DNA from: Candidatus Zymogenus saltonus
GTDB taxonomy: Bacteria; Desulfobacterota; Zymogenia; Zymogenales; Zymogenaceae
NCBI GenBank assembly: GCA_016929395.1
Contig: JAFGIX010000023.1
Span: 1 to 64,000 of the forward strand
Direction of reading: 5' to 3'
DNA: 64,000 nt
This document shows positions 2,689 to 18,607 of this stretch, piece by piece. A model generated the notes under the pieces. That model saw only the letters and a list, made by a program, of their open reading frames with translations. It made no database searches and was not told the origin of the DNA. Position numbers and translations under genes: made by a program. How positions within the stretch are numbered: the stretch's first letter is position 1; every line of letters begins with the position of its first letter.

Positions 2689-2783
2689 TTCAATAAACCT
2701 GCGAATGAAGGGTTGACTATCTAATATCTAATCAAATGCCTGAATATCATAATGGACTTCATTTAGCCGAACTATAAACCGCC

Positions 2784-4079
2784 CTATTGAGAGAACACCC
2801 GGTTGAATATGAAGTCTGTGTGCCTCACATAGAATCGAGGGTCGAATACGTCCTCGATGTCTTCCGTTTTCAGGCGCTCCTTTATCTTGTCATCCACCTT
2901 GACCAGATCGATGAACCTCGCCTTTCCCTCCCAGGCGCGCTTCGCCATACTTTGGACTACCTCGTAGGCCTCCTCCCTCGTCATGCCGGAGTCGATTAGT
3001 TTTAACAGAAGTCTCTGGGAGTAGACGAGGCCGCCGGTGGATTCGAGGTTTTCCCTCATCCTATCCGGGAAGACCACGAGCTTGTCTATCACGCCGGTTA
3101 TCCTCGTCAGCATGAAATCGAGGAGGATTGTGGAGTCCGGGGCGATGACCCGCTCCACCGAGGAGTGGCTGATGTCCCGCTCGTGCCATAGGGGGACGTT
3201 CTCCATTGCCGCCAGGCTGTTTGACCTGACGAGCCTTGCCAAGCCCGTCACATTCTCCGTCAGGATCGGGTTTCTCTTGTGGGGCATCGCGGACGAGCCC
3301 TTTTGTCCGGGAGAAAAATACTCCATCGCCTCTAAGACCTCGGTTCTCTGGAGATGCCTGATCTCTATCGCGAACTTCTCCACCGACGAGGCGATAATGG
3401 CGAGCGTAGTGAAAAACTGGGCGTGCCTGTCGCGCTGGACGACCTGGGTCGAGGCGGGGGCGGGCGTAAGTCCCAGCTTTTCCATCACCCTCTCCTCCAG
3501 CTCAGGCTCGATGTTGGCGAAGGTCCCCACCGCCCCCGAGAGCTTGCCGCAGCTTATCGTCTCCTTGGCGGCTAACATCCTCTCTTTGTTTCGCCTCATC
3601 TCGTCGTACCAGACGGCGAGCTTGTGGCCGAAGCTTATCGGCTCCGCGTGCACCCCGTGGGAGCGGCCTATCATTACCGTTTCCTTGAACTCGAAGGCCC
3701 TCCTCTTTAAAACCTCGAGGAGTTTATCTATATCGCCGATCAGGATGTCTGAGGCCTCTTTAAGGAGCAGGGCGAGGGAGGTGTCGAGAATGTCGGAAGA
3801 GGTTAGGCCCATGTGGATGAAACGGGAGGACGGCCCCACATATTCCGCCACATTTGTGAGAAAGGCGATGACGTCGTGCTTGGTGACCGCCTCGATCTTG
3901 TCTATCCCCTCGATGTCGAACCGCGCCTTCTCCACGATTGCCTTGAGGTCTTCGGCGGGGATCTTTCCCATCTCGGCCTGCGCCTCGCACGCCGCGATCT
4001 CGATCTGAAGCCACGTCTCGAATTTCCTCTTCGGCTCCCAGATGATCCCCATCTCGGGCCGGGTGTAGCGCTCTATCAT
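2784..4079 (-). CDS. purB: Adenylosuccinate lyase
   Basis: Cleaves SAICAR and adenylosuccinate, releasing fumarate, in purine synthesis. The 431-residue length is normal. It has the superfamily signature GSSAMPHKRNP near residue 265, the TSSD segment near residue 92 and the SHGVHAEP segment with a catalytic histidine near residue 140. It starts at ATG 4079, and a TATAAT-like -10 sequence lies about 40 bases upstream on the minus strand. Gene order purB-purF suggests a small purine operon. Confidence 0.95.
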   Translation of the reverse strand: MIERYTRPEMGIIWEPKRKFETWLQIEIAACEAQAEMGKIPAEDLKAIVEKARFDIEGIDKIEAVTKHDVIAFLTNVAEYVGPSSRFIHMGLTSSDILDTSLALLLKEASDILIGDIDKLLEVLKRRAFEFKETVMIGRSHGVHAEPISFGHKLAVWYDEMRRNKERMLAAKETISCGKLSGAVGTFANIEPELEERVMEKLGLTPAPASTQVVQRDRHAQFFTTLAIIASSVEKFAIEIRHLQRTEVLEAMEYFSPGQKGSSAMPHKRNPILTENVTGLARLVRSNSLAAMENVPLWHERDISHSSVERVIAPDSTILLDFMLTRITGVIDKLVVFPDRMRENLESTGGLVYSQRLLLKLIDSGMTREEAYEVVQSMAKRAWEGKARFIDLVKVDDKIKERLKTEDIEDVFDPRFYVRHTDFIFNRVFSQ

Positions 4080-4242
4080 ATTTTTAAAGGATATTGTGAA
4101 AAGAAGTTATATTATACGCCTTTTTTTCTCATCTTTCCACAATAAACTTGTTACTAAAATCTTTTTATTTTTTGATGGCTTTATCAGGAAATAAACCGGT
4201 TTTTTAAGGGACATGGCGGTTTTTAAAGCCCCTAATTTGTGA

Positions 4243-4258
4243 TATAGTCGATTATATG
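4243..4258 (+). promoter_or_regulatory. -10 element placed for a leaderless tilS message
   Basis: TATAGT at 4243-4248 is seven bases from the tilS ATG at 4256. Transcription from this box would start at the initiation codon. No Shine-Dalgarno sequence precedes the ATG. The -35 region is poor. Confidence 0.35.
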
Positions 4259-5650
4259 AAGAAACGGTTTCTGAAAAAAGTGTCCGATGCGATCGACACG
4301 CACGGTATGATCGATTCCGGCGATCACGTTGTCTGCGCCGTATCCGGGGGCGCGGACTCGACGGCCCTCCTCTACGCCCTCTATTATCTCAGGGGAAAAT
4401 ATGACATTACTATCTCGGCCGCTCACGTAAACCACGGTCTCAGGGGTGAGGAGGCGAGGAGGGACCAAAATCACGCGAGACGCCTTGCAGAGGATCTCGG
4501 TCTCGAATTTCACCTGAAGGATGCGGACGTGAAAGGGTATGCTTCCATAGGAAGGCTGAGCGTTCAGGAGGCGGGGCGGGAGGTTCGCGACGCATTCTTC
4601 AGGGAGATCGTCGAGAGATACGGCGGGGCGAAGGTCGCCACGGGACACACGAAAACCGACAACGGCGAGACCTACCTGATGCGCCTTATTGTCGGCGCCG
4701 GGTTGGAGGGGCTGTCCGGCATCCCGCCGATAAACGGCTTCTATATCCGGCCGCTTATCGCCGTATCGAGGGGGGAGGCCGAGGAGTTCCTGGATGAGAT
4801 CGGGGTAGATTACGTGACCGACTCCTCGAACTTAGAGAACAAGTACCTGAGAAATATCATCAGAAACGAGATAATCCCGATACTCAGGGAGGTGAATCCA
4901 AACGTCGAGGAGAGCCTTGCGGAGACGGCGGCTGAGTATCGGCGCCTTTTCGAGACGGTAAGGGAGGAGGTTAACGCCTTCATGGAGAAAAACCTCGAAG
5001 GTAACTCCCTTCCCGTCGACGCCTTAAATAGTCTCCCAGAGGGACTCAAGGGGGAGGCGGTAAAGGAGCTGATCTTTAGAAACGCCGAAGACATGGAAAA
5101 GCCCCTTCGCCTGACGAGGCGCCACATCGAGGCCGTCCTCGGCATCGTCCGGGGGATTTCGAGGGGGGAGAGGGCGGTGGACCTCCCGGGCGGGCTTACG
5201 GCTGTAAGGAGTTACGGCAGACTCTCGGTCGTAAAGGCGGGGAGGAGTGGCGAAGGGACGGACGCGGTTTACTCTATCGAGATACCGGGGAGGACCGAAA
5301 TTCCCCGGCTCAACCTTAAAATAGTCTCCGCCGTCGAGACAGGGGCCGAAACCGACATCGGCGATGACAAGAACCCCGTCATCTTCGACATGGACAGGCT
5401 GAAGTCTCCGCTCACTCTCAGAACGAGGAGGGACGGAGACCGGTTTTATCCGGCGGGCATGAAGGGCTCGAAGAAGGTGAAGGACTTCTTCATAGATATT
5501 AAAATTCCCAGAAGCAAGAGGGACAAAGTTCCTATCCTCCTCTCCGGGGGCGATATTATCTGGATAGTCGGGCACAGGGCTGACGGGCGGTTTGTCGCAA
5601 ATGAAGGCACAAAGAGACGGCTTAAGATAAACTTTTCCCCTTTGTCATAG
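4256..5650 (+). CDS. tilS: tRNA(Ile)-lysidine synthetase
   Basis: Modifies C34 of the AUA-reading tRNA-Ile to lysidine using ATP. The 464-residue protein has the N-type ATP-pyrophosphatase PP-loop SGGADST at about residue 31-37, then the HVNHGLRGEEARRD segment and the GHTKTDNGET motif typical of TilS. C-terminal TilS substrate-binding domains follow, with an RRDGDRFYPAGMKG segment near residue 390 that is common in full-length TilS. It stands alone between purB (divergent) and a convergent membrane gene eight bases downstream. Confidence 0.95.
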   Translation: MKKRFLKKVSDAIDTHGMIDSGDHVVCAVSGGADSTALLYALYYLRGKYDITISAAHVNHGLRGEEARRDQNHARRLAEDLGLEFHLKDADVKGYASIGRLSVQEAGREVRDAFFREIVERYGGAKVATGHTKTDNGETYLMRLIVGAGLEGLSGIPPINGFYIRPLIAVSRGEAEEFLDEIGVDYVTDSSNLENKYLRNIIRNEIIPILREVNPNVEESLAETAAEYRRLFETVREEVNAFMEKNLEGNSLPVDALNSLPEGLKGEAVKELIFRNAEDMEKPLRLTRRHIEAVLGIVRGISRGERAVDLPGGLTAVRSYGRLSVVKAGRSGEGTDAVYSIEIPGRTEIPRLNLKIVSAVETGAETDIGDDKNPVIFDMDRLKSPLTLRTRRDGDRFYPAGMKGSKKVKDFFIDIKIPRSKRDKVPILLSGGDIIWIVGHRADGRFVANEGTKRRLKINFSPLS

Positions 5651-5658
5651 TGGAGGGC

Positions 5659-6267
5659 CTATTCGATTTTGGGGACATCATCGTAATTGTCTTCTTCAAT
5701 TATGCCCCCGCCCGGCCATCCCAGCATCAACAGAAGGCCCGCCATAAAAAGGAGGGAAATAAACGCAAAGCCAATAATTATCTGGATACGCTCGTCCCAA
5801 GCATAGAAGATGTTTACTATTACGGTAATCCCATTCAAGAACAGGTAAAACCCCAGAAGAAAGATGCCCGCCGCCTGCCTTACCACCTCCCGATTTACAG
5901 CGCCGATAATAATAAGCGCTCCGGCGCCGAACGACAGAGCCACCTTTAGGAAATACATTTCTTTCACCGAGGGAATAAAGACCGACAGGCCCTCGGCAAT
6001 AAGCCAGAGGCCCAGCCCCAAAAAACCGAGTTTCAAGAAATCGTCCTTGATCTTCCCGATCAACTTGATAATCATGACGAGGCCGACAACTATGCCGAAT
6101 AAGGCCGTCAGGTAGAGTAAGAGGAAAAACACCGATCTGAAGCCGGTGAAGTTTATGAATGACAACAAAGCCCTGGAGACGCAGTAGATCCCCAGGGAAA
6201 CAAATACCGTCTTTTCGCTCAACGTCTCCGGCGATCTTATCTTTGAAAATGCCTCTTGGATATCCAT
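5659..6267 (-). CDS. Polytopic membrane protein of unknown function
   Basis: A 202-residue protein with about six hydrophobic segments: two between residues 20-70, then about 76-96, 104-122, 132-152 and 160-182. It ends in a short acidic tail rich in Asp and Glu. No catalytic motif or family was recognised. It is transcribed in the same direction as the next gene (6365-6832), which is also a small all-helical membrane protein, and a strong GC hairpin (6307-6330) separates them. Confidence 0.75.
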   Translation of the reverse strand: MDIQEAFSKIRSPETLSEKTVFVSLGIYCVSRALLSFINFTGFRSVFFLLLYLTALFGIVVGLVMIIKLIGKIKDDFLKLGFLGLGLWLIAEGLSVFIPSVKEMYFLKVALSFGAGALIIIGAVNREVVRQAAGIFLLGFYLFLNGITVIVNIFYAWDERIQIIIGFAFISLLFMAGLLLMLGWPGGGIIEEDNYDDVPKIE

Positions 6268-6306
6268 AGATATTGCTTGACTTTAAGCTTCAAGGGGAAG
6301 AGACCC

Positions 6307-6330
6307 CCGGGCCGACGGCTGCCGGCCCGG
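6307..6330. other. GC-rich hairpin between two membrane-protein genes
   Basis: Perfect eight-base inverted repeat CCGGGCCG / CGGCCCGG (6307-6314 and 6323-6330) with an eight-base loop. On the minus strand it follows the 6365-6832 gene. No T run follows, so a termination role is unproven; it could instead stabilise an RNA end. Confidence 0.5.
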
Positions 6331-6364
6331 ATTGCCTAAGTTTTAGATAAAAAGGACGATTTCC

Positions 6365-6832
6365 CTAACGCTCGATCAGGATGAAGATGCCGGCCACTAT
6401 CGCCAGGATCGGCGCCACGATCCCGCCGACTCCCAAAGCGGGCATGAAAGATACGCCGGTAACTATCAGAAAAATACCCAGAAGGAGCCTGCCGATGTTT
6501 TTTAACACCTTCTTCCAGTTCAGGGCGATCAGGATCAGGATGCCGGCTGCAATGGCGAGGACCATCATGATCTCATTGGACCCCAGGAAACCGAAGTTAA
6601 AGAGCTGAAAGAGCCCTGCGAGGATCAGCCAAATGCCCAGAAGGAGCATCCCTATCTCTTCGATCCCCCTGACCCTCCCCAGGGCGATGATTATAACCGC
6701 ACCTGTCACAATGCAGTATATATTCAGCACCGTCTCCATCCCTGGGATCCTCATGTAAATAAACGTCAGCGCCCCGAGAATGATAAGGAGAATGCCCAGA
6801 AGAAGCATCCCCGTTTTTTTACTGATTGCCAC
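6365..6832 (-). CDS. Small membrane protein made of three repeated helical hairpins
   Basis: A 155-residue, almost entirely hydrophobic protein. The motif G-(M/R)-LLLGI-x-LI-x-x-G occurs three times, at about residues 8, 60 and 112, each followed by a second hydrophobic helix, so the protein is an internal triplication of a roughly 50-residue unit and has about six membrane helices. No catalytic residue stands out and the family was not identified. A purine-rich Shine-Dalgarno sequence (AAGGAGG, read on the minus strand) lies just before the ATG. Confidence 0.75.
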   Translation of the reverse strand: MAISKKTGMLLLGILLIILGALTFIYMRIPGMETVLNIYCIVTGAVIIIALGRVRGIEEIGMLLLGIWLILAGLFQLFNFGFLGSNEIMMVLAIAAGILILIALNWKKVLKNIGRLLLGIFLIVTGVSFMPALGVGGIVAPILAIVAGIFILIER

Positions 6833-6944
6833 AATTTACCTCCTTAAAAAAATGGCAAATTAAGCCTGATAATGCTTTTCTATTGCAATACGCCTCTTGA
6901 AACATCTCAAATCAGCCACGCCCAAGAATTGAATCCGCGGTATG

Positions 6945-7130
6945 CTGTCATTCCCAACTTGATTGGGAATCCAGATAGATATTTTACTGGATTCCCGCTT
7001 TTGCGGTAATGACATGTGCTTCTTAGGCTTCGGTCTTGACCCAGCTTTTCACTGACAAGCAGGAGCTTGTCAGTGCCACCCATCACACAAACACCAACCG
7101 CTCTGGATTCCCGTTTGCACGGGAATGACA
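6945..7130. repeat. REP-like repeat cluster between membrane gene and larA
   Basis: The 432-base gap 6833-7264 holds a copy of the TCATTCCC...GGGAATCCAG repeat (6945-6983), two related CTGGATTCCCG...GGGAATGACATG half-units (about 6987-7016 and 7103-7130) and a perfect 11-bp hairpin at 7050-7075. Bases 7140-7264 are C-rich on the plus strand, directly after the larA stop on the minus strand. A 95-residue open frame over this stretch is repeat sequence and not a gene. Confidence 0.6.
7050..7075. repeat. Perfect 11-bp palindromic hairpin
   Basis: CACTGACAAGC (7050-7060) and GCTTGTCAGTG (7065-7075) pair perfectly around the loop AGGA. No T run follows on either strand. It sits inside the REP-like cluster and may be another dispersed repeat type. 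Confidence 0.6.
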
Positions 7131-7264
7131 TGTCAATCGAGCCCCCCTCCACCTGCCAAGGAAATGACATGTACCAGACTACCCACCCCCTCACCCTGCA
7201 ACATCCGCACCTAAAGAGATAATACCAGAATCGGCCAAAAAAGCAACCTCAAAAAAGGGGGAGA

Positions 7265-8506
7265 TTACGACTCTATATACGATATCGTGGCGTTGGGGAT
7301 CACCCCGGCCCTCGTCCCGGGGCCGAACCTCCCCTTTAGGTGTTCCATCGCCTCGTCCCAGCTCTTGGCCCAGGTTATAACCTCCGGGTTTCGCACCCAG
7401 TCGGCGAAGTTTTTGTCCAGATACGGCGCCACGACAACAACGTCGATATTTTCGCCGATCCCTCCTATCGGATAGTGTCTCCCGCCGTAGTCCCTGCCAA
7501 AGCTCCGCTGGAAGTAGTGGGGAACCTGCCCCTCGGGGGCGTTGGCTATGACCATCACCGTCCCGGAAGATCGGCCGAGGGCCATCTCCCCCAGGCGCAG
7601 GGCGATGAACATCTCGTTGGCCTTGGCAAACGCGTTGGCGATGACAACTTCCCTCCCCTCGGGAGCGGGGTCGAGGGCGTAGACCCCCTTGGCGAGCCTC
7701 ACCGCCTCCGCGTGCTCCGCGAGAAAGTCCCCGGCGAAAAGGGCCGTGGTCTCACCTCTCCCGTTTACTACGGCGTCCACCTTGAAGTCGAGCCTGGCCA
7801 TCGCGGCCGCCTCCTCGATCTCCATTCGCATTACGTTCTTGTCGAAATTGCCTAAGCCCGTCGTCTCCGGGGCCGTGTCGTGGATTTCGATGTGGTAGTG
7901 GGCGGCGCTGTCTATGTGGGAGACTCCGGGAAGCAATATCTTTCCGCCGCCCGAAAACCCGACGTTGGCATGGGCGGTCACGCAGCCGATGCCTATCCTG
8001 ACGTCCGCCTCCATCACCTCCCTGTTCACCATGAGCCTCGTTCCCCTCTTAGTCTCGCCCACGTAGACGCAGTTCTCGTAGGCGTTGTGATTGAAGACGC
8101 GAAACCTCTCCAGTATCCCGGCGCCCAGCTTCTTCCTGAACTCGTGGGAGGTGTGGGCGCCGTGGTTTCCGAGGGCGCAGACAAAGGTGATCTCCTCCTC
8201 GTCGATCCCGCCGGCGGTAAGCTCCTTTATCACTATCGGCGCTATCTCGTAGACCCTGGTGGGACGGGTGATGTCATCGAATATGATAACGGCGCTCTTC
8301 TTTCCTCTCGCTATATCCCTGAGCCTCGCCGAGCCGATCGGCGCTTTTATCCGCTCCTCCATCTCGGATGCCGTCATCGGCCTTTCGGCCGCGCCCCGCA
8401 TCGGGTGGAGCGTGACGTCCCAGTCGTTCGGAAGCTCGATCTCTACGGTCCTGTTTCCGTACCAGATAAGCTCGCCAAGCCCTATCTTCATACCCATTTT
8501 CCTCAC
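7265..8506 (-). CDS. larA: LarA-family nickel-pincer racemase (lactate racemase-like)
   Basis: Members of this family racemise or epimerise alpha-hydroxy acids with a nickel-pincer nucleotide cofactor. The 413-residue protein has the LarA N-terminal domain (about 1-230), with FDDITRP and CALGNHG segments, and the GCVTAHANVGFSGGGKILLPGVSH segment region holding the conserved histidines and lysine (about 180-205). Cofactor biosynthesis genes larB, larC and larE are not in the window, so the substrate is not fixed; non-lactate homologues are common. It lies downstream of hisI, 39 bases away. C-rich sequence follows its stop on the plus strand. Confidence 0.85.
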   Translation of the reverse strand: MRKMGMKIGLGELIWYGNRTVEIELPNDWDVTLHPMRGAAERPMTASEMEERIKAPIGSARLRDIARGKKSAVIIFDDITRPTRVYEIAPIVIKELTAGGIDEEEITFVCALGNHGAHTSHEFRKKLGAGILERFRVFNHNAYENCVYVGETKRGTRLMVNREVMEADVRIGIGCVTAHANVGFSGGGKILLPGVSHIDSAAHYHIEIHDTAPETTGLGNFDKNVMRMEIEEAAAMARLDFKVDAVVNGRGETTALFAGDFLAEHAEAVRLAKGVYALDPAPEGREVVIANAFAKANEMFIALRLGEMALGRSSGTVMVIANAPEGQVPHYFQRSFGRDYGGRHYPIGGIGENIDVVVVAPYLDKNFADWVRNPEVITWAKSWDEAMEHLKGRFGPGTRAGVIPNATISYIES

Positions 8507-8545
8507 AAAACTCCATCAGGGATTAAGAAAGATTTCCACCCCGCC

Positions 8546-8926
8546 CTATCCCTTCTTGTACACCTCGTCCGGATTGAAGACGAGCTCCCCCTCCTCGATC
8601 AACCCGCCGCCCTCCAACCTCCTGTAGAAGCAGGAGCGGTGCCCCGTGTGGCACGCCGCCCCTCCCACCTGCTCCACCTTGATTAGAACCGTGTCCTCGT
8701 CGCAGTCGACGTAGATCTCCACCACCCTCTGGACATGGCCGGAAGTCTCCCCCTTCTTCCACAGCTTGTTCCTCGTGCGGCTGAAGTAGACCACCTCCCC
8801 ATCCTTCAGCGTCCTCTCCCAAGACTCCGGACTCAAGAACCCGAGCATCAGGACTTCTCCCGTCTCGTGATCCTGAATCACCGCCGGGACAAGCCCGTCA
8901 AACTTTTTGAAATCGAGCTCTACCAC
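8546..8926 (-). CDS. hisI: Phosphoribosyl-AMP cyclohydrolase
   Basis: Opens the adenine ring of phosphoribosyl-AMP in histidine synthesis (a Zn2+/Mg2+ enzyme). Conserved segments are VLMLGFL, SRTRNKLWKKGETSGH, VDCDEDT with the metal-binding aspartates, and GGAACHTGHRSCFYR with the zinc cysteines. The GTG at 8926 is preferred: AAGGGGG precedes it by about five bases and it gives 126 residues, the usual single-domain length. The longer frame to ATG 8992 adds 22 residues that look unlike the family. It is a stand-alone HisI without the HisE domain; no other his genes are nearby. Confidence 0.9.
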   Translation of the reverse strand: MVELDFKKFDGLVPAVIQDHETGEVLMLGFLSPESWERTLKDGEVVYFSRTRNKLWKKGETSGHVQRVVEIYVDCDEDTVLIKVEQVGGAACHTGHRSCFYRRLEGGGLIEEGELVFNPDEVYKKG

Positions 8927-9118
8927 AGATCCCCCTTGAAAAGCCTTAAAGTATGTACAGCCCTTTTTAACATTGGAGGCTCGGAAATACAAGGATTTTC
9001 AGCATATTTAGAAAACCAAGCGGGGATAAAAGAGAAATATTTTGACACAAAAGCCCTTTCGATATAGAATTCTTAAAACCAAAAAGACCCGCACCATATT
9101 TGCTGCAAGGGAGCGATT

Positions 9119-9883
9119 ATGAGGATTGCCGAGACCGGGAGGATAAGCGATGTCCTGCCGGACGAGTTTATGGAGAGGAAGGAGTTTTACAAACGCTCCC
9201 TCGACCTCTTTCTCCTGATGATAGAGGCCCAGCCGGTAAATCCTCCAGCCTGGGGGCACATCGGGCTGCTCCTCTATGAGCTGGGGCGATTCGACAAGAG
9301 CCTCGGTTACTTCGCGATGATAAACGAGGTCGAGCCGAACAACGCCGTGGCGCTGGACGCCAGGGGGTTCATCGAAATGGAGCGGGGGAACTTTAAATCG
9401 GCCGTCTCTCACTTCGAGAGGGTGGTGGAGATTAGCCCGAAAAGACACGATGTGGCGTCAGACCTGGCCCTCTGTCTCTACCACGTTGGTAGATACGACG
9501 ACCTGAGGTCGCTCCTCGATGCCTCGGTGGGTAAAATGATGGGGGTAAAGGAATATTTCCTCTTAGGGAAGAGCGCCGACGCCCTGGGCGAGGAGTCGTC
9601 CGCCCACTACAAAAAGTGCATCGACCTCTACACGGCTCCCGCCGGCCCCGTCCGCGAGGCCCAGTACGCTTGCTTAAACGCCATGAGGGGGGCCGCCCTC
9701 TCCATGACAGGTGACGGAAAGGATAAAAGCGGGGAGGTAAAGAAGGCCTTTATGGAGGCGGCGCGGCGCGCGGGCCTCACCGACCCGGACAGGATGATCC
9801 TCTCAGCCTTCGACCTGACCTTCAAGGCGAGGGGGAAGTTTATTCGAGAGATAAAGGATCACATTTCAAGGTTAGATGGGTAA
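9119..9883 (+). CDS. TPR-repeat protein of unknown function
   Basis: A 254-residue soluble protein with no signal peptide. Residues about 30-130 form two or three tetratricopeptide repeats (for example AWGHIGLLLYELGRFDKSLGYF and the following ALDARGFIEMERGNFKSAVSHF); a second helical region follows. TPRs act as protein-binding scaffolds; no enzymatic domain is visible. AGGGAG sits six bases before the ATG. It is divergent from hisI-larA and followed by a long gene-free stretch. Confidence 0.75.
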   Translation: MRIAETGRISDVLPDEFMERKEFYKRSLDLFLLMIEAQPVNPPAWGHIGLLLYELGRFDKSLGYFAMINEVEPNNAVALDARGFIEMERGNFKSAVSHFERVVEISPKRHDVASDLALCLYHVGRYDDLRSLLDASVGKMMGVKEYFLLGKSADALGEESSAHYKKCIDLYTAPAGPVREAQYACLNAMRGAALSMTGDGKDKSGEVKKAFMEAARRAGLTDPDRMILSAFDLTFKARGKFIREIKDHISRLDG

Positions 9884-10327
9884 AGAGGCTTTAGTTGAAC
9901 CTGCCGAGACGCGGGGGCGGGTTTAATGTAGGCCCGGCTGGATTTTCTGCGGACTTCGATGTCGCCCTAAAGATGCGAAGCGGTCCCCCGGCGCTTCGAT
10001 TAGTATTCAACCCTGTCCCTGGGTTCCCCGCCCAAGTGCGAACAAAGCCCCGGCCGCCGAAACGAAGCTTGACTTAAAAGGGCAAAGGATGGGATGGTCG
10101 AGAAAGTTTTTTTAAGGGCACGGCCGGCCGAGGGGAAACCGCCCGTCCCCGCCTTTATAATCCCTTCGATCGAGGACGGCGCCCGGCCCCGGTTCCAGGC
10201 CGATCGGAGACTTATTACGCCGCATCAATTTGCGTTTAGAGTTTCTGCAGGCTCCGAAATGTCCGGGGAATTTGAGGCAACAGGCAGGTTGCGGAAATTC
10301 GACATTCTTGAAACGTCAGGCGGCCAC
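9884..10327. other. Gene-free stretch before the recJ 3' array
   Basis: No convincing gene was found. Two short plus-strand open frames (9895-10077 and 10094-10339) lack family resemblance, have no good ribosome binding site, and the second runs into the repeat array. Composition is GC-rich. The sequence may be decayed coding DNA. Confidence 0.4.
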
Positions 10328-10589: not shown

Positions 10590-12338
10590 TTACACCACCT
10601 TTATATCCCGGATGTTGAGCTCCGTTCCGCTCCCCCTCTCCCACTTGTTCTCCCTGAGGTTGAAGACGATGTCCACGACATCCATCCCGTTTCGCGCCAT
10701 CTCCCCCTTCCCGAAGGCTATTGCGTCCCACCTGCAGTTCTTGTCCTTGAAGGCGATCTTCAGGTGGTTTTTACCCACCAGCCTCGCCTCGTTCACCACG
10801 AGCCCCCTGGCCAGAAAGAGGGGCTCCGGATTTGCGGAGCCGAAGGGCGCAAGGAGCTTCGTCTCGTGAAGGAGGTTGTATCTCTGGATGTCCGTGAGTG
10901 TTATCTCAGCATCTATCTTCAGCGCGGGGATGAAGTGGTCGTCCGTGGTCATCTCGGTGACGACCTCCTCGAACCTCTCTCTGAAAAGGTCAATCTTGTC
11001 CGCCTCGATCGCCAGCCCTGCGGCATATTTGTGCCCCCCGAATTCGATGAGCAGCGACTCGAGCTGCAATATCCCCCTGTATATATGAAACCCGGAGATG
11101 CTCCTCGCGGAGCCCTTGCCCATCCCGTCCATGAGGGAGACCATGATCGTGGGGCGGTAGTAGCGGTCCACAAGCCTCGACGCCACGATCCCCACAACGC
11201 CCGGGTGCCAGTTGTTCGAGGCAAGCACTATGGAGCGTCGATCGTCGAGGATGCCGTCCCTGTCGATGATCTCTATCGCCTCGTTTAAGACCTCCTCCTC
11301 CATAATCTGTCTTTTGCTGTTCTCGATCTCGATACTCTGGGCGATGGAAAGGGCCTGGGCGGGATCGTTTGTGGTCAAGAGCCTCACGCTGTCCATGGCG
11401 CTTCCGATCCTTCCCGAAGCATTCAGCCTCGGGGCGAGGCGAAAGCTCACCGTTCCCGTGCTTATGTTATCCTTTTTCACACCGGAGACCTCCCTCAAGG
11501 CGACGATGCCCGGGCGGTGGTCTTCCGTAAGCTCGACCAGTCCGTACCTGACAAACAGCCTGTTTTCTCCCGTCAGGGGGACGATGTCGGCTATGGTGCC
11601 CAGGGCCACGAGGTCGAGGTATCTTTTGAGATTCGGAAGTTCCTCGACGAAGAGTCCCCTGTCTCTCATCTCCTTTCTTAACGCGATGAGAAAATTGTAC
11701 GCGATCCCGACCCCGGCAAGGCTCTTGGTAGGGAATCTGCAGTCGGCCCTCTTAGGATTCAGGACCGCATCGGCTTTCGGCATCACCTCCGGCACCTCAT
11801 GGTGGTCAGTGACGATCACCTCCATCCCCAGCGACTTTGCGAGGGCTATCTCGTCGACGTTGGAGATGCCGCAGTCGACGGTAAAGATGAGATCGGCCCC
11901 CTTCTCCTTCATGTTGCGGACGCTGTCGGCCCTCAGGCCGTACCCCTCGCCTACCCTCTCGGGGATGTAGTAATTCGCATCTATCCCGACGGCCTTGAGA
12001 AACAGGACGATTATCGAGACCGCCGTAACCCCGTCCACGTCGTAGTCGCCGAAAACCCAGATATTCTTTCTCGAAACAATAGCCTCGATCATAATCTTAA
12101 CCGCCCTGTCCATGTCGGCCATCAGATAAGTATCGGGAAATTGCGAGAGGTCTGGAAAGAGGAATTCATGGGCGTCATAGGCATCCGTGATGTCCCTGTT
12201 CAAGAGAAGCCTCGAGGTCACCTCGGAGATTTCAAGGTCATACAATCTTTTGAGGTCATCTTTAAGGCCATAGACCGTATCGTCGCTCTGATCGGCCCGG
12301 TCCCATTTATATTCAATAGGCATGTAGTTGAGACTCAT
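10590..12338 (-). CDS. recJ: Single-stranded-DNA-specific exonuclease RecJ
   Basis: A 5'-3' single-strand exonuclease in recombination and repair. The DHH phosphoesterase domain carries FGDYDVDGVTA (about residue 90) and VTDHHE (about 180); a DHHA1 domain with the FGGHKYAAG motif lies near residue 455, and a C-terminal OB-type domain follows. The start is ambiguous: the longest frame opens with TTG at 12368, which lies inside the -35 element. ATG 12338 coincides with the predicted transcription start (leaderless), and ATG 12323 is next. ATG 12338 gives 582 residues. The gene is divergent from ssb and followed directly by a G-rich repeat array. Confidence 0.93.
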   Translation of the reverse strand: MSLNYMPIEYKWDRADQSDDTVYGLKDDLKRLYDLEISEVTSRLLLNRDITDAYDAHEFLFPDLSQFPDTYLMADMDRAVKIMIEAIVSRKNIWVFGDYDVDGVTAVSIIVLFLKAVGIDANYYIPERVGEGYGLRADSVRNMKEKGADLIFTVDCGISNVDEIALAKSLGMEVIVTDHHEVPEVMPKADAVLNPKRADCRFPTKSLAGVGIAYNFLIALRKEMRDRGLFVEELPNLKRYLDLVALGTIADIVPLTGENRLFVRYGLVELTEDHRPGIVALREVSGVKKDNISTGTVSFRLAPRLNASGRIGSAMDSVRLLTTNDPAQALSIAQSIEIENSKRQIMEEEVLNEAIEIIDRDGILDDRRSIVLASNNWHPGVVGIVASRLVDRYYRPTIMVSLMDGMGKGSARSISGFHIYRGILQLESLLIEFGGHKYAAGLAIEADKIDLFRERFEEVVTEMTTDDHFIPALKIDAEITLTDIQRYNLLHETKLLAPFGSANPEPLFLARGLVVNEARLVGKNHLKIAFKDKNCRWDAIAFGKGEMARNGMDVVDIVFNLRENKWERGSGTELNIRDIKVV

Positions 12339-12344
12339 ATTAAA

Positions 12345-12373
12345 ATTATAGTTGAACAGAGGGGTCAAGTCAA
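12345..12373 (-). promoter_or_regulatory. Sigma-70-type promoter of recJ
   Basis: On the minus strand TTGACT (12373-12368) and TATAAT (12350-12345) are separated by exactly 17 bases. The expected start of transcription is at or within a base or two of ATG 12338, so the message would be leaderless or nearly so. Confidence 0.6.
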
Positions 12374-12388
12374 CAATAACACCGCTAT

Positions 12389-12427
12389 CGGATAAAAAAA
12401 GGATACATATTTTATCCGCTTTTTTTC
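12389..12427. other. Hairpin with T run in the recJ-ssb intergenic region
   Basis: CGGATAAAA and TTTTATCCG pair around a loop, followed on the plus strand by CTTTTTTT. No plus-strand gene ends before it, so it is not an ordinary gene terminator. It could block read-through towards ssb from antisense transcription. Confidence 0.35.
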
Positions 12428-12488
12428 TTCGGATTTGTCAAAGGGCGAAGGCCGGTTTTCGCGGCGGCCCCTTATTCTGAAAAAAAAC

Positions 12489-12516
12489 TTGACTTGTCAC
12501 ACTGCGGTGGTAAAAT
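12489..12516 (+). promoter_or_regulatory. Promoter of ssb
   Basis: TTGACT (12489-12494), a 16-base spacer and TAAAAT (12511-12516). The ssb GTG start at 12561 follows after about 38 bases of leader with AGGATGGGG as ribosome binding site. Confidence 0.55.
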
Positions 12517-12560
12517 CGAAATATGTAAAGAAATGTAATAACATATAATAGGATGGGGAT

Positions 12561-13004
12561 GTGAGTGTTAATAAAGCTATTCTTGTTGGGAATCTTGGAT
12601 CGGACCCAGAGGTAAGGTATACGCCAAGCGGCAGACCCGTAGCCACCTTCAGCATCGCCACAAACGAGAAGTGGACGGACAAAAACACCGGCGAAAAACA
12701 GGAGAGGACCGAATGGCATCGAATCGTGGCTTGGGGCAGGCTCGGCGAGATATGCGGGGAATATCTGTCCAAGGGAAAGCAGATCTACATTGAAGGCAGA
12801 ATCCAGACGCGCTCGTGGGAAGACCGGGACGGCAACAGGCGGTATACCACCGAGATCGTCGCCCAGACCATGCAGATGCTGGGCAGACGGGGAGAAACAG
12901 GCGATTTCAACGAGGGGGGGGGAAGGGATTTCGACGACGGGGGGGATGTACCCCCGATTCATGAAGGTCCCACGGGCCCCGATGACGACGATATCCCCTT
13001 TTAG
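12561..13004 (+). CDS. ssb: Single-stranded DNA-binding protein
   Basis: Binds and protects single-stranded DNA in replication and repair. The 147-residue protein has an OB fold (about 1-107: [37 protein letters not shown]), a glycine- and acid-rich linker, and the C-terminal tip DDDDIPF that recruits partner proteins. The GTG start is supported by AGGATGGGG just upstream. It is followed eight bases later by the polyprenyl synthase gene and is divergent from recJ. Confidence 0.96.
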
Positions 13005-13012
13005 TTCACGAT

Positions 13013-13984
13013 ATGACAAAACCCTTCGCATTAATCCAGAGTGAGCTGGAAGAAGTAGAAGCAGAAATACGGAGAAATATATACTCCGAGGTGAATCTCA
13101 TCCCAGAGATAGTGAAGCATATCATGTTTTCCGGGGGGAAGAGGTTTCGGCCGGCTCTTCTGATTTTATGTTCAAGGCTCTTTAAAAACGAGAACAACAG
13201 GAAGTCCATTTCCCTCGCGGGGGTAATAGAGCTCGTTCACACCGCCACGCTGCTTCACGACGACGTGGTGGACAGCGCCGAATTAAGAAGGGGAGTGGAG
13301 TCAGCCAATATACTGTGGGGCAACCAGACGAGCATCCTCGTGGGCGATTTCCTTATATCCCAGGCCTTCTCCATGATGGTGGAGGTGGGAGACTTAAGGA
13401 TCCTCGACATAGTCTCCCTGACTACAAAAAAGATGACCGAGGGAGAAATGTTTCAGATCGCCCTTGAAAATGCATTGAACATAACCGAGGAGCAGTATCT
13501 CAAGCTCATCCACAACAAAACCGCCGTACTGATCGCCTCGGCCTGCAGGATAGGGGCACTTTTGGGCGGAACGGAAAAATCGAACGAGGAAAAGCTGGCA
13601 AAATTCGGCGAGGGGGTGGGCATGGCGTTCCAGATAGTGGATGACGTCCTCGATTATTCCTCCGACCTGAAAGAGGTGGGTAAACCGGTCGGAAACGACC
13701 TGGCGGAACAGAAGGCGACCCTCCCCTTGATATTCTCCCTTTTGAAAATGAGCGACGGGGAGAGAGATAAAACGGCAGAGATTTTTTTCGCCGACAAAAA
13801 AAGCGAAGAAGACTTCAGCTACATTTTCGGCATCGTAAAACAACACGGCGGAATAGAATATTCCATGAAAAAGGCCAAGTCCTTTACCGAAAGCGCGAAA
13901 GAGGAGCTGGTGGATTTTCCCGATTCCGAGGAAAAACAGGCACTTTTTGATCTCGCGGACTACGTAATAGAGAGAAGGGCTTAA
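13013..13984 (+). CDS. ispB: Polyprenyl diphosphate synthase (IspB/HepT type)
   Basis: A long-chain trans-prenyltransferase that extends farnesyl or geranylgeranyl diphosphate with IPP to make quinone side chains. The 323-residue protein has FSGGKRFRP near residue 40, the first aspartate-rich motif HDDVVD near residue 82 followed by LRRG, and the second, VDDVLDY, near residue 210. Small residues ahead of the first motif fit a long-chain product; the exact length cannot be read from sequence. It probably forms an operon with ssb. A G-rich array follows the stop. Confidence 0.9.
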   Translation: MTKPFALIQSELEEVEAEIRRNIYSEVNLIPEIVKHIMFSGGKRFRPALLILCSRLFKNENNRKSISLAGVIELVHTATLLHDDVVDSAELRRGVESANILWGNQTSILVGDFLISQAFSMMVEVGDLRILDIVSLTTKKMTEGEMFQIALENALNITEEQYLKLIHNKTAVLIASACRIGALLGGTEKSNEEKLAKFGEGVGMAFQIVDDVLDYSSDLKEVGKPVGNDLAEQKATLPLIFSLLKMSDGERDKTAEIFFADKKSEEDFSYIFGIVKQHGGIEYSMKKAKSFTESAKEELVDFPDSEEKQALFDLADYVIERRA

Positions 13985-14319: not shown

Positions 14320-15888
14320 ATGGAATCAAACGTCCCAACAGCAGAATCCGTCATTATAGAAATATACAGGGCCCAAAAAGGAAGGACCATGTACCCCGAG
14401 GGTCACCCATCGCTGAAGAAGTCCTACGAAAACGCATATAGTGTCCTGCAGAGGTTTCTGGAAAGCGAGCGGGAGCTGGACATCTCTTTAAAAAAGGAAG
14501 GACTGTTCAACAAGGATTTCCCCTTAAACAAGGGAAACGAGGTAATAAAGCATCTCACTCAAGATATGAACATGAAGAGTGTATCAAACCTCACCTTCAA
14601 AAACGGTTTGACGCTCGAGGAGTTCAATTCATTTATGAACCTCTTTGCAATGGAACACAGCCAGTTCAGGGAGGCCGGCGGGGCAATAAAGCTTTTCAGC
14701 GAAAATGGAATAAAGCTGATAACGGTAAAAGAGGCGGCCTTCGACGGGCTTATAAAGGAGGGGTACGCGGAAGAAGGAGCCGAGGAAATCGGCGAGGCCG
14801 AGGAAGAAGTCAAAGTCGACATCGAGATGCCCGAAGAGATCGAGGAGGAGGAAGAAGAGGACAAGGAGCTGGTTGAAGAGATAGAACGCCTGATAATGCT
14901 TCTGGTCAAAGAGACAAACCCGAACAGAATCAAAAAGATTCTTATCAACATCATAAAGCTCGCAGGCGAGCTCACCGCCCAGGAGAAGATCGATTACGCC
15001 CTGAAGCTGCTTACCGCGGTATCCAAGGAAGCTCACCCGAGGAGGAGACGCCCCAAGGAAATTCAGCAGATGTGCGTCAAAACGGTGAGAAAATGCGCAA
15101 CCGAAAAAGTCATCAAGGGCGCTCTGGATAACTTCGGGAAAAAGGATGAAAAGCTCAGGAATGAGCTTGGAATACTGATTAAGGTCATAGGAGATGAGAC
15201 CATTACGCCCGCCCTGGAATTATTGATCGAAAGCGAGGACTCCTTTATAAGGCGAAACCTCATCAAGCTCATAGTAAGCTTCGGAGAGATGGCGAGACCC
15301 AAGGTGGAGATACTCCTCTTCGACAACAGATGGTTCGTTGTGAGAAACATGGCCAATATATTGGGGGAGATAAAGAGCGAGAAATCCCTGAACTCCCTGT
15401 CTAGGGTAATGAATCACGACGAGATCAGGGTACAGAGGGAGGTAATCAAGGCGCTGACAAAAATCGGCGGAAAGAACGTAACTATTTTTTTCCTCCGAAT
15501 GCTGGAGAACGCCCCGCAGCAGCTCGCCTTTATCCTGATCAATTCGCTGGGCGCCCTCGGTGATGCAATGGCCGTAGAACCCCTTGTAAACATTGCAACA
15601 ACGAGGGACATGTTTTACAGGAACTTCGAGATCAGGAGGGAGGCGATTAATTCCCTCGCGAGGCTCGGCAGCAAGGATTCTATGGACGCCCTGGGGAAGA
15701 TCCTTCTAAAGGGCGAGTTTCTCGGGGGAATCAGAAATGAAGAGTTGAGAATAACAGCGGCCAAGGCGCTGGGCAAACTCGGGGGAGAAAAGGCCATCGG
15801 ATTTTTATTTAAGGCCGCCAAGAAGCGTAACAGTAACATTAAAAGGGCTTCGTTGGCCGCGCTAAAGGCGCTCGGTGTTGAAATATGA
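14320..15888 (+). CDS. HEAT-repeat protein with N-terminal YPxxHPS module
   Basis: A 522-residue soluble protein. Residues about 8-145 form a module beginning with MYPEGHPSL that also starts the next gene's product. An acidic linker of mostly Glu (about 150-190) follows, then HEAT/armadillo-type helical repeats to the end (for example ALELLIESEDSFIRRNLIKL and LGKLGGEKAIGFLFKA). HEAT repeats bind proteins. The stop overlaps the HD-GYP start by four bases (ATGA), so the two are translationally coupled and probably act together in a signalling role. No enzyme domain was seen. Confidence 0.8.
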   Translation: MESNVPTAESVIIEIYRAQKGRTMYPEGHPSLKKSYENAYSVLQRFLESERELDISLKKEGLFNKDFPLNKGNEVIKHLTQDMNMKSVSNLTFKNGLTLEEFNSFMNLFAMEHSQFREAGGAIKLFSENGIKLITVKEAAFDGLIKEGYAEEGAEEIGEAEEEVKVDIEMPEEIEEEEEEDKELVEEIERLIMLLVKETNPNRIKKILINIIKLAGELTAQEKIDYALKLLTAVSKEAHPRRRRPKEIQQMCVKTVRKCATEKVIKGALDNFGKKDEKLRNELGILIKVIGDETITPALELLIESEDSFIRRNLIKLIVSFGEMARPKVEILLFDNRWFVVRNMANILGEIKSEKSLNSLSRVMNHDEIRVQREVIKALTKIGGKNVTIFFLRMLENAPQQLAFILINSLGALGDAMAVEPLVNIATTRDMFYRNFEIRREAINSLARLGSKDSMDALGKILLKGEFLGGIRNEELRITAAKALGKLGGEKAIGFLFKAAKKRNSNIKRASLAALKALGVEI

Positions 15889-17258
15889 ACGATAAAGTAG
15901 ACGAAAAAAAGACTAAAGAGCTTTTCATCAATACGATGAAATTCATGGGCGGGGCCCTGTCCAGCTTGAAGCTGTATCCCGAGACACACCCGTCCGTTAC
16001 AAAAACCATAGACGAGCTCTACGCGGCCCTGCAAAAACTAATCGGGGATAAAAACCGTATAGTCATCGCCGTCACAAGAAATATCCCTGTCCTGGACGGC
16101 GTCCCGGTATACGAGAGCAACGTTCATCTCCAGTCCTTTACCAAGCTTATTCAAGATAAAGGGATTGAGCTGATTATTATTAAATCCTCACTGAAAAGGA
16201 AGGAGCTTGCGCCCTTCATCGAGCTTGTAAATAAGAAACCTGAAGATGTTGAAACGGAAGATCTGAATTTCCTGCTGGAGAAGAAGGAAGTCAGAAGCAT
16301 CCTGATAAAAGACATAAATTTCACGGAAAGCGCCAGAGAGACCTACTTTTCAGCAATAGACGCGATCGAAAAGACGCTGGACGATATAAGGATGGGCAAC
16401 AAGATCAACGTATTCGAAAACAAACGGGCGGTAAAGGGCATTGTCAACAGCATCTTGATAGACAAGAGCGTTCTCCTCTCCCTCTCCATGATAAAAAATT
16501 TCAACGACTACCTCTTCTCCCACTCCGTAAACGTCTGTATAATAGCCTCGGCCCTCGCCGAGGAGATCGGCTTCAACGACGAAGAAATCAATGAAATTGG
16601 GCTCGGAGGACTCCTGCACGATATAGGCAAACTGAAAACCCCCAAGACCGTCCTCCTGAAACCTGGAAAGCTCAACGATCAAGAATGGAAGGTGATGAGG
16701 CAGCACCCCTCATTAGGTTTCGAGCTGATTTACGGTCTGAAAGGGATAGACAAGAAGATCGCAAGGATGGTCTACGAGCATCACATGAGGCCCAACGTCA
16801 AGGGATACCCGAAGCCAAAGGAGAACTCCAAGCCGATAGCGGAGAGCCAGATAATCGCCATAGCCGATACCTACGACGCATGCACAACCTTAAGACCCTA
16901 CCAGAATCCCCTCTCGCCGGCGGAAGCCATGGCGAAGATGAAAAAGATGACCAAGGAGACGGGGGATTTCAACATGGAGTACCTGGAAGTCTTTTTCAAC
17001 ATGATGGGCCTATATCCGATAGGAACGGCCGTCAGGCTCGACACCAACGAGCTGGCCCTCGTATCCAGATATACCCAGAAACGAAAAATACCGATAGTCA
17101 AAATCTTCATGAGCCGTGAGGGAAAAATCATCGATGAGCCGAAGGAGGTCGATCTCAACGACAAGAACATCGACACCGGAAAACCGCTCCGCTCCATAAT
17201 CTCAGAGGTGGATATACTCGCCAGAAATATCGACCCTACCGTGATTCTCGCAAAGTAG
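15885..17258 (+). CDS. HD-GYP domain phosphodiesterase with N-terminal YPxxHPS module
   Basis: HD-GYP proteins usually hydrolyse cyclic di-GMP. The 457-residue protein begins with the module shared with the preceding gene (LYPETHPSV at about residue 29), followed by the HD-GYP domain (about 190-380). The metal and signature motifs are present: HSVNVC, LLHDIGKLKTP, EHHMRPNVKGYP (the GYP), and ADTYDACTT. A C-terminal beta-rich tail of about 70 residues follows. There is no receiver or membrane segment, so input probably comes through the N-terminal module or the coupled HEAT protein. Substrate is inferred from the family. Confidence 0.88.
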   Translation: MNDKVDEKKTKELFINTMKFMGGALSSLKLYPETHPSVTKTIDELYAALQKLIGDKNRIVIAVTRNIPVLDGVPVYESNVHLQSFTKLIQDKGIELIIIKSSLKRKELAPFIELVNKKPEDVETEDLNFLLEKKEVRSILIKDINFTESARETYFSAIDAIEKTLDDIRMGNKINVFENKRAVKGIVNSILIDKSVLLSLSMIKNFNDYLFSHSVNVCIIASALAEEIGFNDEEINEIGLGGLLHDIGKLKTPKTVLLKPGKLNDQEWKVMRQHPSLGFELIYGLKGIDKKIARMVYEHHMRPNVKGYPKPKENSKPIAESQIIAIADTYDACTTLRPYQNPLSPAEAMAKMKKMTKETGDFNMEYLEVFFNMMGLYPIGTAVRLDTNELALVSRYTQKRKIPIVKIFMSREGKIIDEPKEVDLNDKNIDTGKPLRSIISEVDILARNIDPTVILAK

Positions 17259-17296
17259 AACCGCATCACTATAGGGGGTGACACAACCCATGCGCC

Positions 17297-17410
17297 CATA
17301 GATGGGAAAAGTGCCCCGGCGGCCTTGGGCAATTTGCCTCAACATACAACCGACACGGCCAGTAAATCCATAAATGGGAAAGATGTCTTGGTGGTCTTGG
17401 GTAAATCACC
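17297..17410. repeat. Two imperfect 42-bp direct repeats
   Basis: CATAGATGGGAAA... at 17297-17338 and CATAAATGGGAAA... at 17369-17410 align over 42 bases with about ten differences (72-base period). They lie in the 782-base gap after the HD-GYP gene. Between 17411 and 17880 there are an AT palindrome (about 17446-17464), a TGCGGT/ACCGCA hairpin (about 17567-17587) and a repeated TGCGACATCGA; no gene was recognised. Confidence 0.5.
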
Positions 17411-17882
17411 TTGTCATTTGGCCGGACAATCAATGCATCTTCGGTCGTTTTTGTTTAACAAAAACTCTACAGGGTATACACGTCCGAATGATTGACTCCG
17501 GCATATTATATGTAGATTCGCCTCGCCCCTTCACGCCACTATCAATCGCGTTATGCGGTGTAAGAGTTGATTTGCGGTCTCGAAAAAACCGCATTACCGC
17601 CTCGTTCAAACCCCGGGGCAATACCGGCAATTTGAGGTAAAAGAATTTTTCTTTGAAAAAAAATCAGGCACGTTTGTTTGATTCAAGCCGAACAGGATTT
17701 GGATCGAATCTGCGACATCGACAAAGGCAGGAGTGTTTCTTGCGACATCGATACCATGACATCCCGATATTCTTTTGGTATTTAATATTGAAACGCAACG
17801 ACTGCGCCACTTGAACAGCGCTTGATATTAAAGAAACAATGGCGAAGGTGTGATAGATATCTTAGATATGATAACTACGGTG

Positions 17883-18040
17883 AGACAACAACATCGGTAA
17901 ACAACCGCCCCCATAACGACCGCCCCCCTTAATAATCCCCCCCCCACACAATCCCGACCCCCTGTTACAATACCGACCGACCCCTCCGTCAGTTAAAAAA
18001 ACGCCTCTCATTCTATAGGATATAATTCCCCGACAGCCCC
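17883..18040 (-). repeat. G-rich degenerate array after the HEAT gene stop
   Basis: Read on the minus strand, directly after the stop of 18041-18607, there is a row of units such as GGGGTCGGTCGGTATTGTAACA, GGGGGTCGGGATTGTGTG and GGGGGCGGTTGTTTACC. Unit length is about 18-22 bases and copies are diverged. It has the same placement and strand bias as the recJ array but another sequence. Confidence 0.6.
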
Positions 18041-18607
18041 TTAAATATCGAGCTCCCCCAGCGCCCAGCACGCGGCCCTTCTTATTCTCGGTTCTTCGTC
18101 CTGGAGGAGGGAGATCAGAAGCCCTTCCACCTCATTTTGTTTCAGCTTGCCCAGCACCATTATAATAGACTCGTCTAACTCCTTGTCCCCCGAGGGGAGG
18201 ATTTTCATCAATATCTTTGCGATCCCCGGATCACCGATCCTGCCCAAGGACTCAACCGCTTGAATCTTGGCGAGAACGTTGTTTACCTTGAGGACGTTCA
18301 AGAGGGCCGGAATGGCCTTCCTGCTCTCGATCTCGCCCATGGCCCTGATAGCCGCTATCTTCAGGTCATCCTCGTCGTGCTGGAGGGAGTATATAAGGGG
18401 CACCAGGGCCTTTTCGTTCTTCATCCTTGAAAGGGAATAAATATAGCGAAGCTTGTCCGTTTTTATTGCGGATTTAAATTTTGCGACAATATCGGGAAGC
18501 TCCATCAAACCCTCGAGTTTCAGGAGGGCGTCCGAAGCGTTACTCTTTACACCCTTGTCTTCATCCTTCAACGCCTTTGCCAACGCTTTTCTTCTTTCCT
18601 CAATCAT
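18041..18607 (-). CDS. HEAT-repeat protein (small)
   Basis: A 188-residue, all-helical protein with four or five HEAT-like repeats of about 31-35 residues (for example LVPLIYSLQHDEDDLKIAAIRAMGEI and the following AIPALLNVLKVNN). No signal peptide or catalytic motif. The start codon overlaps the stop of the upstream P1 peptidase gene by four bases (ATGA), so both are translated together. It is unrelated to the HEAT gene at 14320 in domain layout because it lacks the YPxxHPS module. Confidence 0.78.
   Translation of the reverse strand: MIEERRKALAKALKDEDKGVKSNASDALLKLEGLMELPDIVAKFKSAIKTDKLRYIYSLSRMKNEKALVPLIYSLQHDEDDLKIAAIRAMGEIESRKAIPALLNVLKVNNVLAKIQAVESLGRIGDPGIAKILMKILPSGDKELDESIIMVLGKLKQNEVEGLLISLLQDEEPRIRRAACWALGELDI

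Follow-up and report, generated by a model that had tools for sequence, protein, structure and literature searches.

How each of the many c-di-GMP enzymes that a bacterium contains acts locally is an open question. It arises here in 64,000 nucleotides of Candidatus Zymogenus saltonus DNA (contig JAFGIX010000023.1; in the following called the window), where two overlapping genes, A and B, encode a HEAT-repeat protein and an HD-GYP protein whose N-terminal modules resemble each other. What could such a shared module be for? A regulatory domain ahead of an HD-GYP domain is a known kind of arrangement; new here is a paired, duplicated and unnamed module with a HEAT partner. The open literature was searched, subscription papers being mostly outside this coverage, and no description of a gene pair for a HEAT-repeat and an HD-GYP protein was found in it.

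A preliminary description of this DNA had given the coordinates of A and B, their four-base overlap and their assignment as a HEAT and an HD protein, with all of which the list of open reading frames and the Pfam matches agree (Table 1).

Table 1. Features of the A-B locus (positions in the window)
Feature	Position	Strand	Evidence
Gene A, 522 aa: module, acidic linker, HEAT repeats	14320..15888	+	ORF; PF13646, E 5.5e-26
Module copy 1, A residues 1-150; signature Y25-P26-x-x-H29-P30	14320..14769	+	BLASTP, hhalign, AlphaFold2
Overlap of 4 bases, A stop codon/B start codon	15885..15888	+	ORF coordinates
Gene B, 457 aa: module, linker helices, HD-GYP, C-terminal tail	15885..17258	+	ORF; PF13487, E 5.1e-22
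Module copy 2, B residues 1-145; signature Y31-P32-x-x-H35-P36	15885..16319	+	BLASTP, hhalign, AlphaFold2
Two predicted linker helices of B (about residues 146-192), from module to HD-GYP	16320..16460	+	AlphaFold2, comparison with DUF3391
Gene C, 188 aa: small stand-alone HEAT-repeat protein, tail to tail with B	18041..18607	-	PF13646, E 2e-25

Relationship and predicted fold of the two modules

BLASTP aligns A24-A108 with B30-B114 over 85 residues without a gap (38.1 bits, E 4e-7, 24% identity). The N-termini of A and B reach a Smith-Waterman score of 93, a value found in none of 2000 shuffles (mean 31.7, sd 5.6, maximum 69); the C-terminal parts, which served as a control, scored 37 against a shuffled mean of 36.1, and 204 of 500 shuffles scored as high. 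Profiles built from 20 A modules and 24 B modules align with each other along 138 columns, with a probability of 99.8 and an E of 2.4e-27 (hhalign). Since the two families partly recruited each other's members, the direct pairwise comparison of A with B is the independent evidence. The similarity of the N-termini noted in the preliminary description is therefore real, and residues 1-150 of A and B are, judged from their sequences, homologous. Among the motifs listed there, Y-P-x-x-H-P is near-invariant in the module, its Tyr and His being invariant in alignments of 63 and of 58 rows; the "Lys-Asp/Pro pattern" is not conserved.

On a tree of 111 modules (calculated without L071, L076, L107, L120 and L127) the labels A and B need 3 and 5 changes, as compared with about 37 when they are shuffled, and the AU test does not reject a tree in which the A modules form one clade against the B modules (p 0.61). 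A single ancient duplication fits both types of module. The trees of A and B mirror each other (distance correlation r 0.89, 49 pairs), as is expected from co-inheritance alone.

For both N-termini AlphaFold2 predicts an alpha/beta module of about 140 residues, with a pLDDT of 90.3 and a pTM of 0.83 for the A module (150 residues) and a pLDDT of 85.7 and a pTM of 0.74 for B residues 1-195. Structure predictions of both N-termini had been suggested as a check, and in both the predicted elements follow one another identically (H H E E H E H H H E): the signature lies at the turn between two long helices, after which come a beta hairpin, a helix, a strand, helices and a strand. In the B model two extra helices follow the module and lead into the HD-GYP domain.

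The module had been described as one without a named domain, and for Pfam and NCBIfam this is borne out: the N-terminal 170 to 188 residues of A and B found no match there better than E 0.065, and 58 module sequences gave matches only in single members, at E 0.0018 or worse, none of them family-wide. Searched against PDB sequences, the module profile found only a designed repeat protein, in three weak pieces, and chance matches. Foldseek detected nothing significant in the PDB (best E 0.43 for the B module and 0.36 for the A module), and its best match among viral structures had an E of 0.36; with VIA-align the best Z was 5.9 for B, on the linker helices only, and 3.4 for the A module. PelD tops both Foldseek lists and GAF domains recur in them, with E values of 0.36-0.43 and a TM of about 0.2, so that no inference is drawn from these matches. 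Because a structural match can be missed, a new fold is only possible, as far as the models go.

DUF3391 (PF11871) was considered as the identity of the module and rejected. With hmmscan the N-terminus of the window's B scores E 0.13, and one of 52 B proteins E 3.6e-4; with hhalign the A module gives a probability of 0.2 with nothing aligned, and the match of B (86.8) is carried mainly by the linker. HD-GYP proteins with DUF3391 share with B the linker helix A-K-x-x-Y-x-x-A ... D-x-R-x-G ahead of the HD domain, but the module proper has no match to DUF3391.

Occurrence, gene order and architectures

Of 99 related genomes, 31 and 34 contain the module according to single-sequence searches. A survey of genomes had been recommended, and a profile search of the window's phylum detected it in 153 of the 394 genomes searched (139 of the 375 good ones). 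Phyla outside the window's own were covered by one scan of named genomes, which yielded 32 module loci, mostly in assemblies of Deltaproteobacteria; the other hosts are Geobacter sp. AOG1, a Methylomirabilota assembly, Luteitalea and another Acidobacteria assembly. At 29 of these 32 loci A lies upstream of B, and at the remaining three the sequence upstream is just 329 to 1021 nt long.

The non-redundant set comprises 56 A-B pairs, the duplicates L103, L104, L123 and L128 (on the same contigs as L065, L074, L084 and L082, respectively) having been removed; one of 60 junction rows, the B-to-A junction between two tandem pairs in L134, was left uncounted. The gap between A and B is within 20 nt in 40 of the 56 pairs, and 18 show the exact four-base overlap; large negative gap values probably reflect the choice of the start codon. 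In L134 (positions 2722-9902), from an Acidobacteria assembly, two A-B pairs are consecutive.

Domain scans detected HEAT_2 in 52 of 52 upstream A partners and HD in 52 of 52 downstream B partners (fragments and near-repeats left out: L071, L107, L120 and L127 for A; L107, L120, L127 and L132 for B). In this respect the preliminary description is supported: the shared module links a gene for a scaffold with one for an enzyme, and the two form a conserved unit. How the modules are grouped was counted in 14 genomes listed in full, which were picked for odd or high counts: 46 of the 53 modules occur in twos, as 18 pairs of adjacent genes and 5 tandem pairs within one open reading frame, and 7 are single. 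On closer look two of the seven have a weak HD-GYP partner, L194 and L197 are read as single, and the other three are G131:C88, G132:C232 and G265:C316.

All five tandem proteins have the order GGDEF-AAA-module-module-HEAT and are 1402 to 1447 residues long. The core of two modules and HEAT repeats is therefore combined with an eraser in the two-gene form and with a writer in the single-chain form. The giants of the type GGDEF-AAA_16-module-module-HEAT include L191, L192, L193 and L200, the last of which is the same protein as L095.

The genome from which the window derives contains the A-B pair and a weak third copy of the module (E 6.6e-5). This copy is located on contig C54 (L149:3764-6592, minus strand) in a protein of 942 residues that starts with TIGR02266, followed by the module (residues 243-377) and HEAT repeats. 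The TIGR02266 score is below the cut-off of that family, which we take to be PilZ-like.

Modules also occur singly: L194 (4287-6656, minus strand) heads a PAS histidine kinase, L101 is a HEAT protein with one module, a cyclic-nucleotide domain and PilZ, and L088 (8829-11057), L091 (6683-8902) and L097 (6225-8450) combine one module with a degenerate GGDEF or PelD-like end. The match of this end is weak in L088 and L097, of which L091 is a close relative in the tree. Because of these five proteins pairing is not universal. The gene directly upstream of the module gene in L088, L091 and L097 resembles, by eye, that of a Ser/Thr protein kinase.

Downstream of B, a convergent small HEAT gene like gene C lies within 1 kb in the window and at 26 of 50 other non-redundant loci, and never in tandem; the count was limited to B genes with enough flanking sequence, and 24 of the 50 loci are without gene C within this distance. 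These loci, 716 kb in total, gave only two further hits, namely a gene of this kind at a distance of 1.6 kb and the remainder of the broken A gene of L071. The convergent HEAT gene, the GGDEF, PilZ-like and histidine-kinase fusions and the weak third module copy are additions to the preliminary description. In L071 (G024:C174) an in-frame TAG interrupts A, and B is intact. The 782 bases between B and C in the window (17259-18040) hold no long open reading frame and no Rfam match.

In the window as a whole there was no Rfam match either, and scans for promoters and terminators remained at chance level. Upstream of A, at 10590-13984, genes resembling recJ, ssb and a polyprenyl synthase gene were recognized by eye. 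A radA-like gene, also assigned by eye, lies upstream and on the opposite strand in 28 loci and is absent at the window locus.

The HD-GYP domain of B

PmGH (PDB 4mcw) provides the reference, since eight metal ligands have been defined for it and a subfamily with Tyr or Phe at the position of E185, predicted to be binuclear, has been set apart (PMC4159591). Aligned to 4mcw, B keeps seven of the eight ligands, H213, H245, D246, H274, H299, H300 and D328 (H189, H221, D222, H250, H276, H277 and D305 in PmGH), and in addition K249 (K225 in PmGH). H213, H245, D246, K249 and H274 are present in 52 of 52 B rows, and H299, H300, G307, Y308, P309 and D328 in all 51 B rows with residues there. The site of E185 is occupied by Y209, and so in 51 of 52 rows, the register being that of H213 minus 4, where phmmer places a gap. 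By these residues B fits the Y/F (binuclear) subfamily of HD-GYP domains.

The usual HHE-x-x-D-G-x-G-Y-P reads HHM-x-x-N-V-x-G-Y-P in the window's B, which makes its phosphodiesterase activity a prediction. At the third position, Met here, 45 of 52 rows have Ile, Leu or Met; Asn stands where 37 of 52 rows have Asp. B is likely an active phosphodiesterase. PmGH and B are alike in that the HD-GYP domain follows an N-terminal regulatory domain and linker helices; PmGH differs in having a GAF domain and a trinuclear E/D-T-G site, where B has the new module and a Tyr at the position of E185 (PMC4159591).

A proposed docking complex and its alternatives

We propose, with slightly more belief than doubt, that A and B form a two-part c-di-GMP phosphodiesterase complex in which the modules pair and the HD-GYP domain is docked on the HEAT scaffold. 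The unnamed alpha/beta domain, duplicated long ago, would head the HEAT scaffold in A and the HD-GYP enzyme in B; the A and B modules would bind each other, giving a hetero-dimer or a larger assembly, and their pairing would place the HD-GYP domain on the HEAT solenoid. The solenoid, perhaps together with the gene C product as a possible third subunit, would pick the partner or the location and would gate the enzyme via the two linker helices of B. With a scaffold that sets the location and gates the HD-GYP domain, removal of c-di-GMP would be local. The pairing role of the module is supported indirectly, by its occurrence in twos and by the fit of the A and B types to one old duplication. The Y-P-x-x-H-P signature, being identical in A and B, may merely hold the fold and not mark the contact.

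The nearest precedent for joined partners controlling a c-di-GMP enzyme is the RcbA/RcbB pair of Vibrio vulnificus: the partners share an N-terminal TPR domain and interact through it, and RcbA modulates RcbB via this domain (PMC12282931). The likeness lies in a two-gene operon, putative for A/B, in a type of N-terminal domain that both products have, and in a c-di-GMP enzyme domain that only the second one carries; the differences are that RcbA/RcbB share TPR and carry a GGDEF cyclase, whereas A/B have the unnamed alpha/beta module, HEAT repeats in the first product and HD-GYP (PMC12282931). Gene order, overlap and shared N-terminus of A and B correspond to the RcbAB layout, and neither A nor B matched a TPR profile. 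By analogy A/B may work like RcbAB, yet they are no members of it.

With more doubt than belief we extend this to the family, in which the module, possibly of a new fold, would be the pairing core of a HEAT-scaffolded c-di-GMP system, present in more than a third of the phylum genomes searched and in Acidobacteria, with an eraser encoded by two genes (HEAT and HD-GYP, often accompanied by another HEAT protein, tail to tail), a one-gene writer (GGDEF-AAA ATPase-module-module-HEAT) and PilZ-like readers assembled from these same components. The single-chain form with paired modules, HEAT and GGDEF would presumably serve local synthesis. If true, a dedicated domain tying erasers and writers to HEAT scaffolds would be a concrete, testable answer to how each c-di-GMP enzyme acts locally; it would be of relevance for a large bacterial group that includes Geobacter, and a domain missing from Pfam and NCBIfam would get a name.

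The module could instead be a small-molecule sensor like GAF or PAS, each copy sensing the same ligand, so that A and B would be a set of sensors and not a docked complex. It occupies the position of REC, GAF or PAS in other HD-GYP proteins, its alpha/beta fold is confidently predicted, Tyr and His are invariant close to the first helix turn, and single copies are found in a histidine kinase and next to a gene resembling that of a protein kinase. We consider a sensor unlikely: near-constant twos, and tandem copies in one chain, would be unusual for a plain sensor, and Foldseek matched none of the known sensor folds significantly, PelD being its best match. Homology of the two modules also makes homodimers plausible, A with A and B with B, which would join two HD-GYP domains and leave the operon to common regulation and the old duplication. 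The HD-GYP proteins PmGH and DvhD do dimerize, DvhD via its stalk helices (PMC13090378). The order of the pair, its tight spacing and the two modules in a single chain are better matched by contact between A and B, and we regard homodimers only as quite improbable.

DvhD, from the sulfate reducer Desulfovibrio vulgaris, is also the model for a third alternative, in which the HD-GYP domain of B would be a c-di-GMP receptor rather than an enzyme and would signal to its HEAT partner. This HD-GYP protein with helical stalks acts as a receptor; it differs in being a membrane protein with dCache and PAS domains that has lost its catalytic residues, with SQ in place of HD and Met and Asn in place of the double His (PMC13090378). 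The altered HHE and D-G positions in the window's B would suit a receptor. The intact metal site of B weakens this reading, which we consider very improbable: all members with residues there retain the HD, the double His and the remaining metal ligands, and a loss of the DvhD type is not seen.
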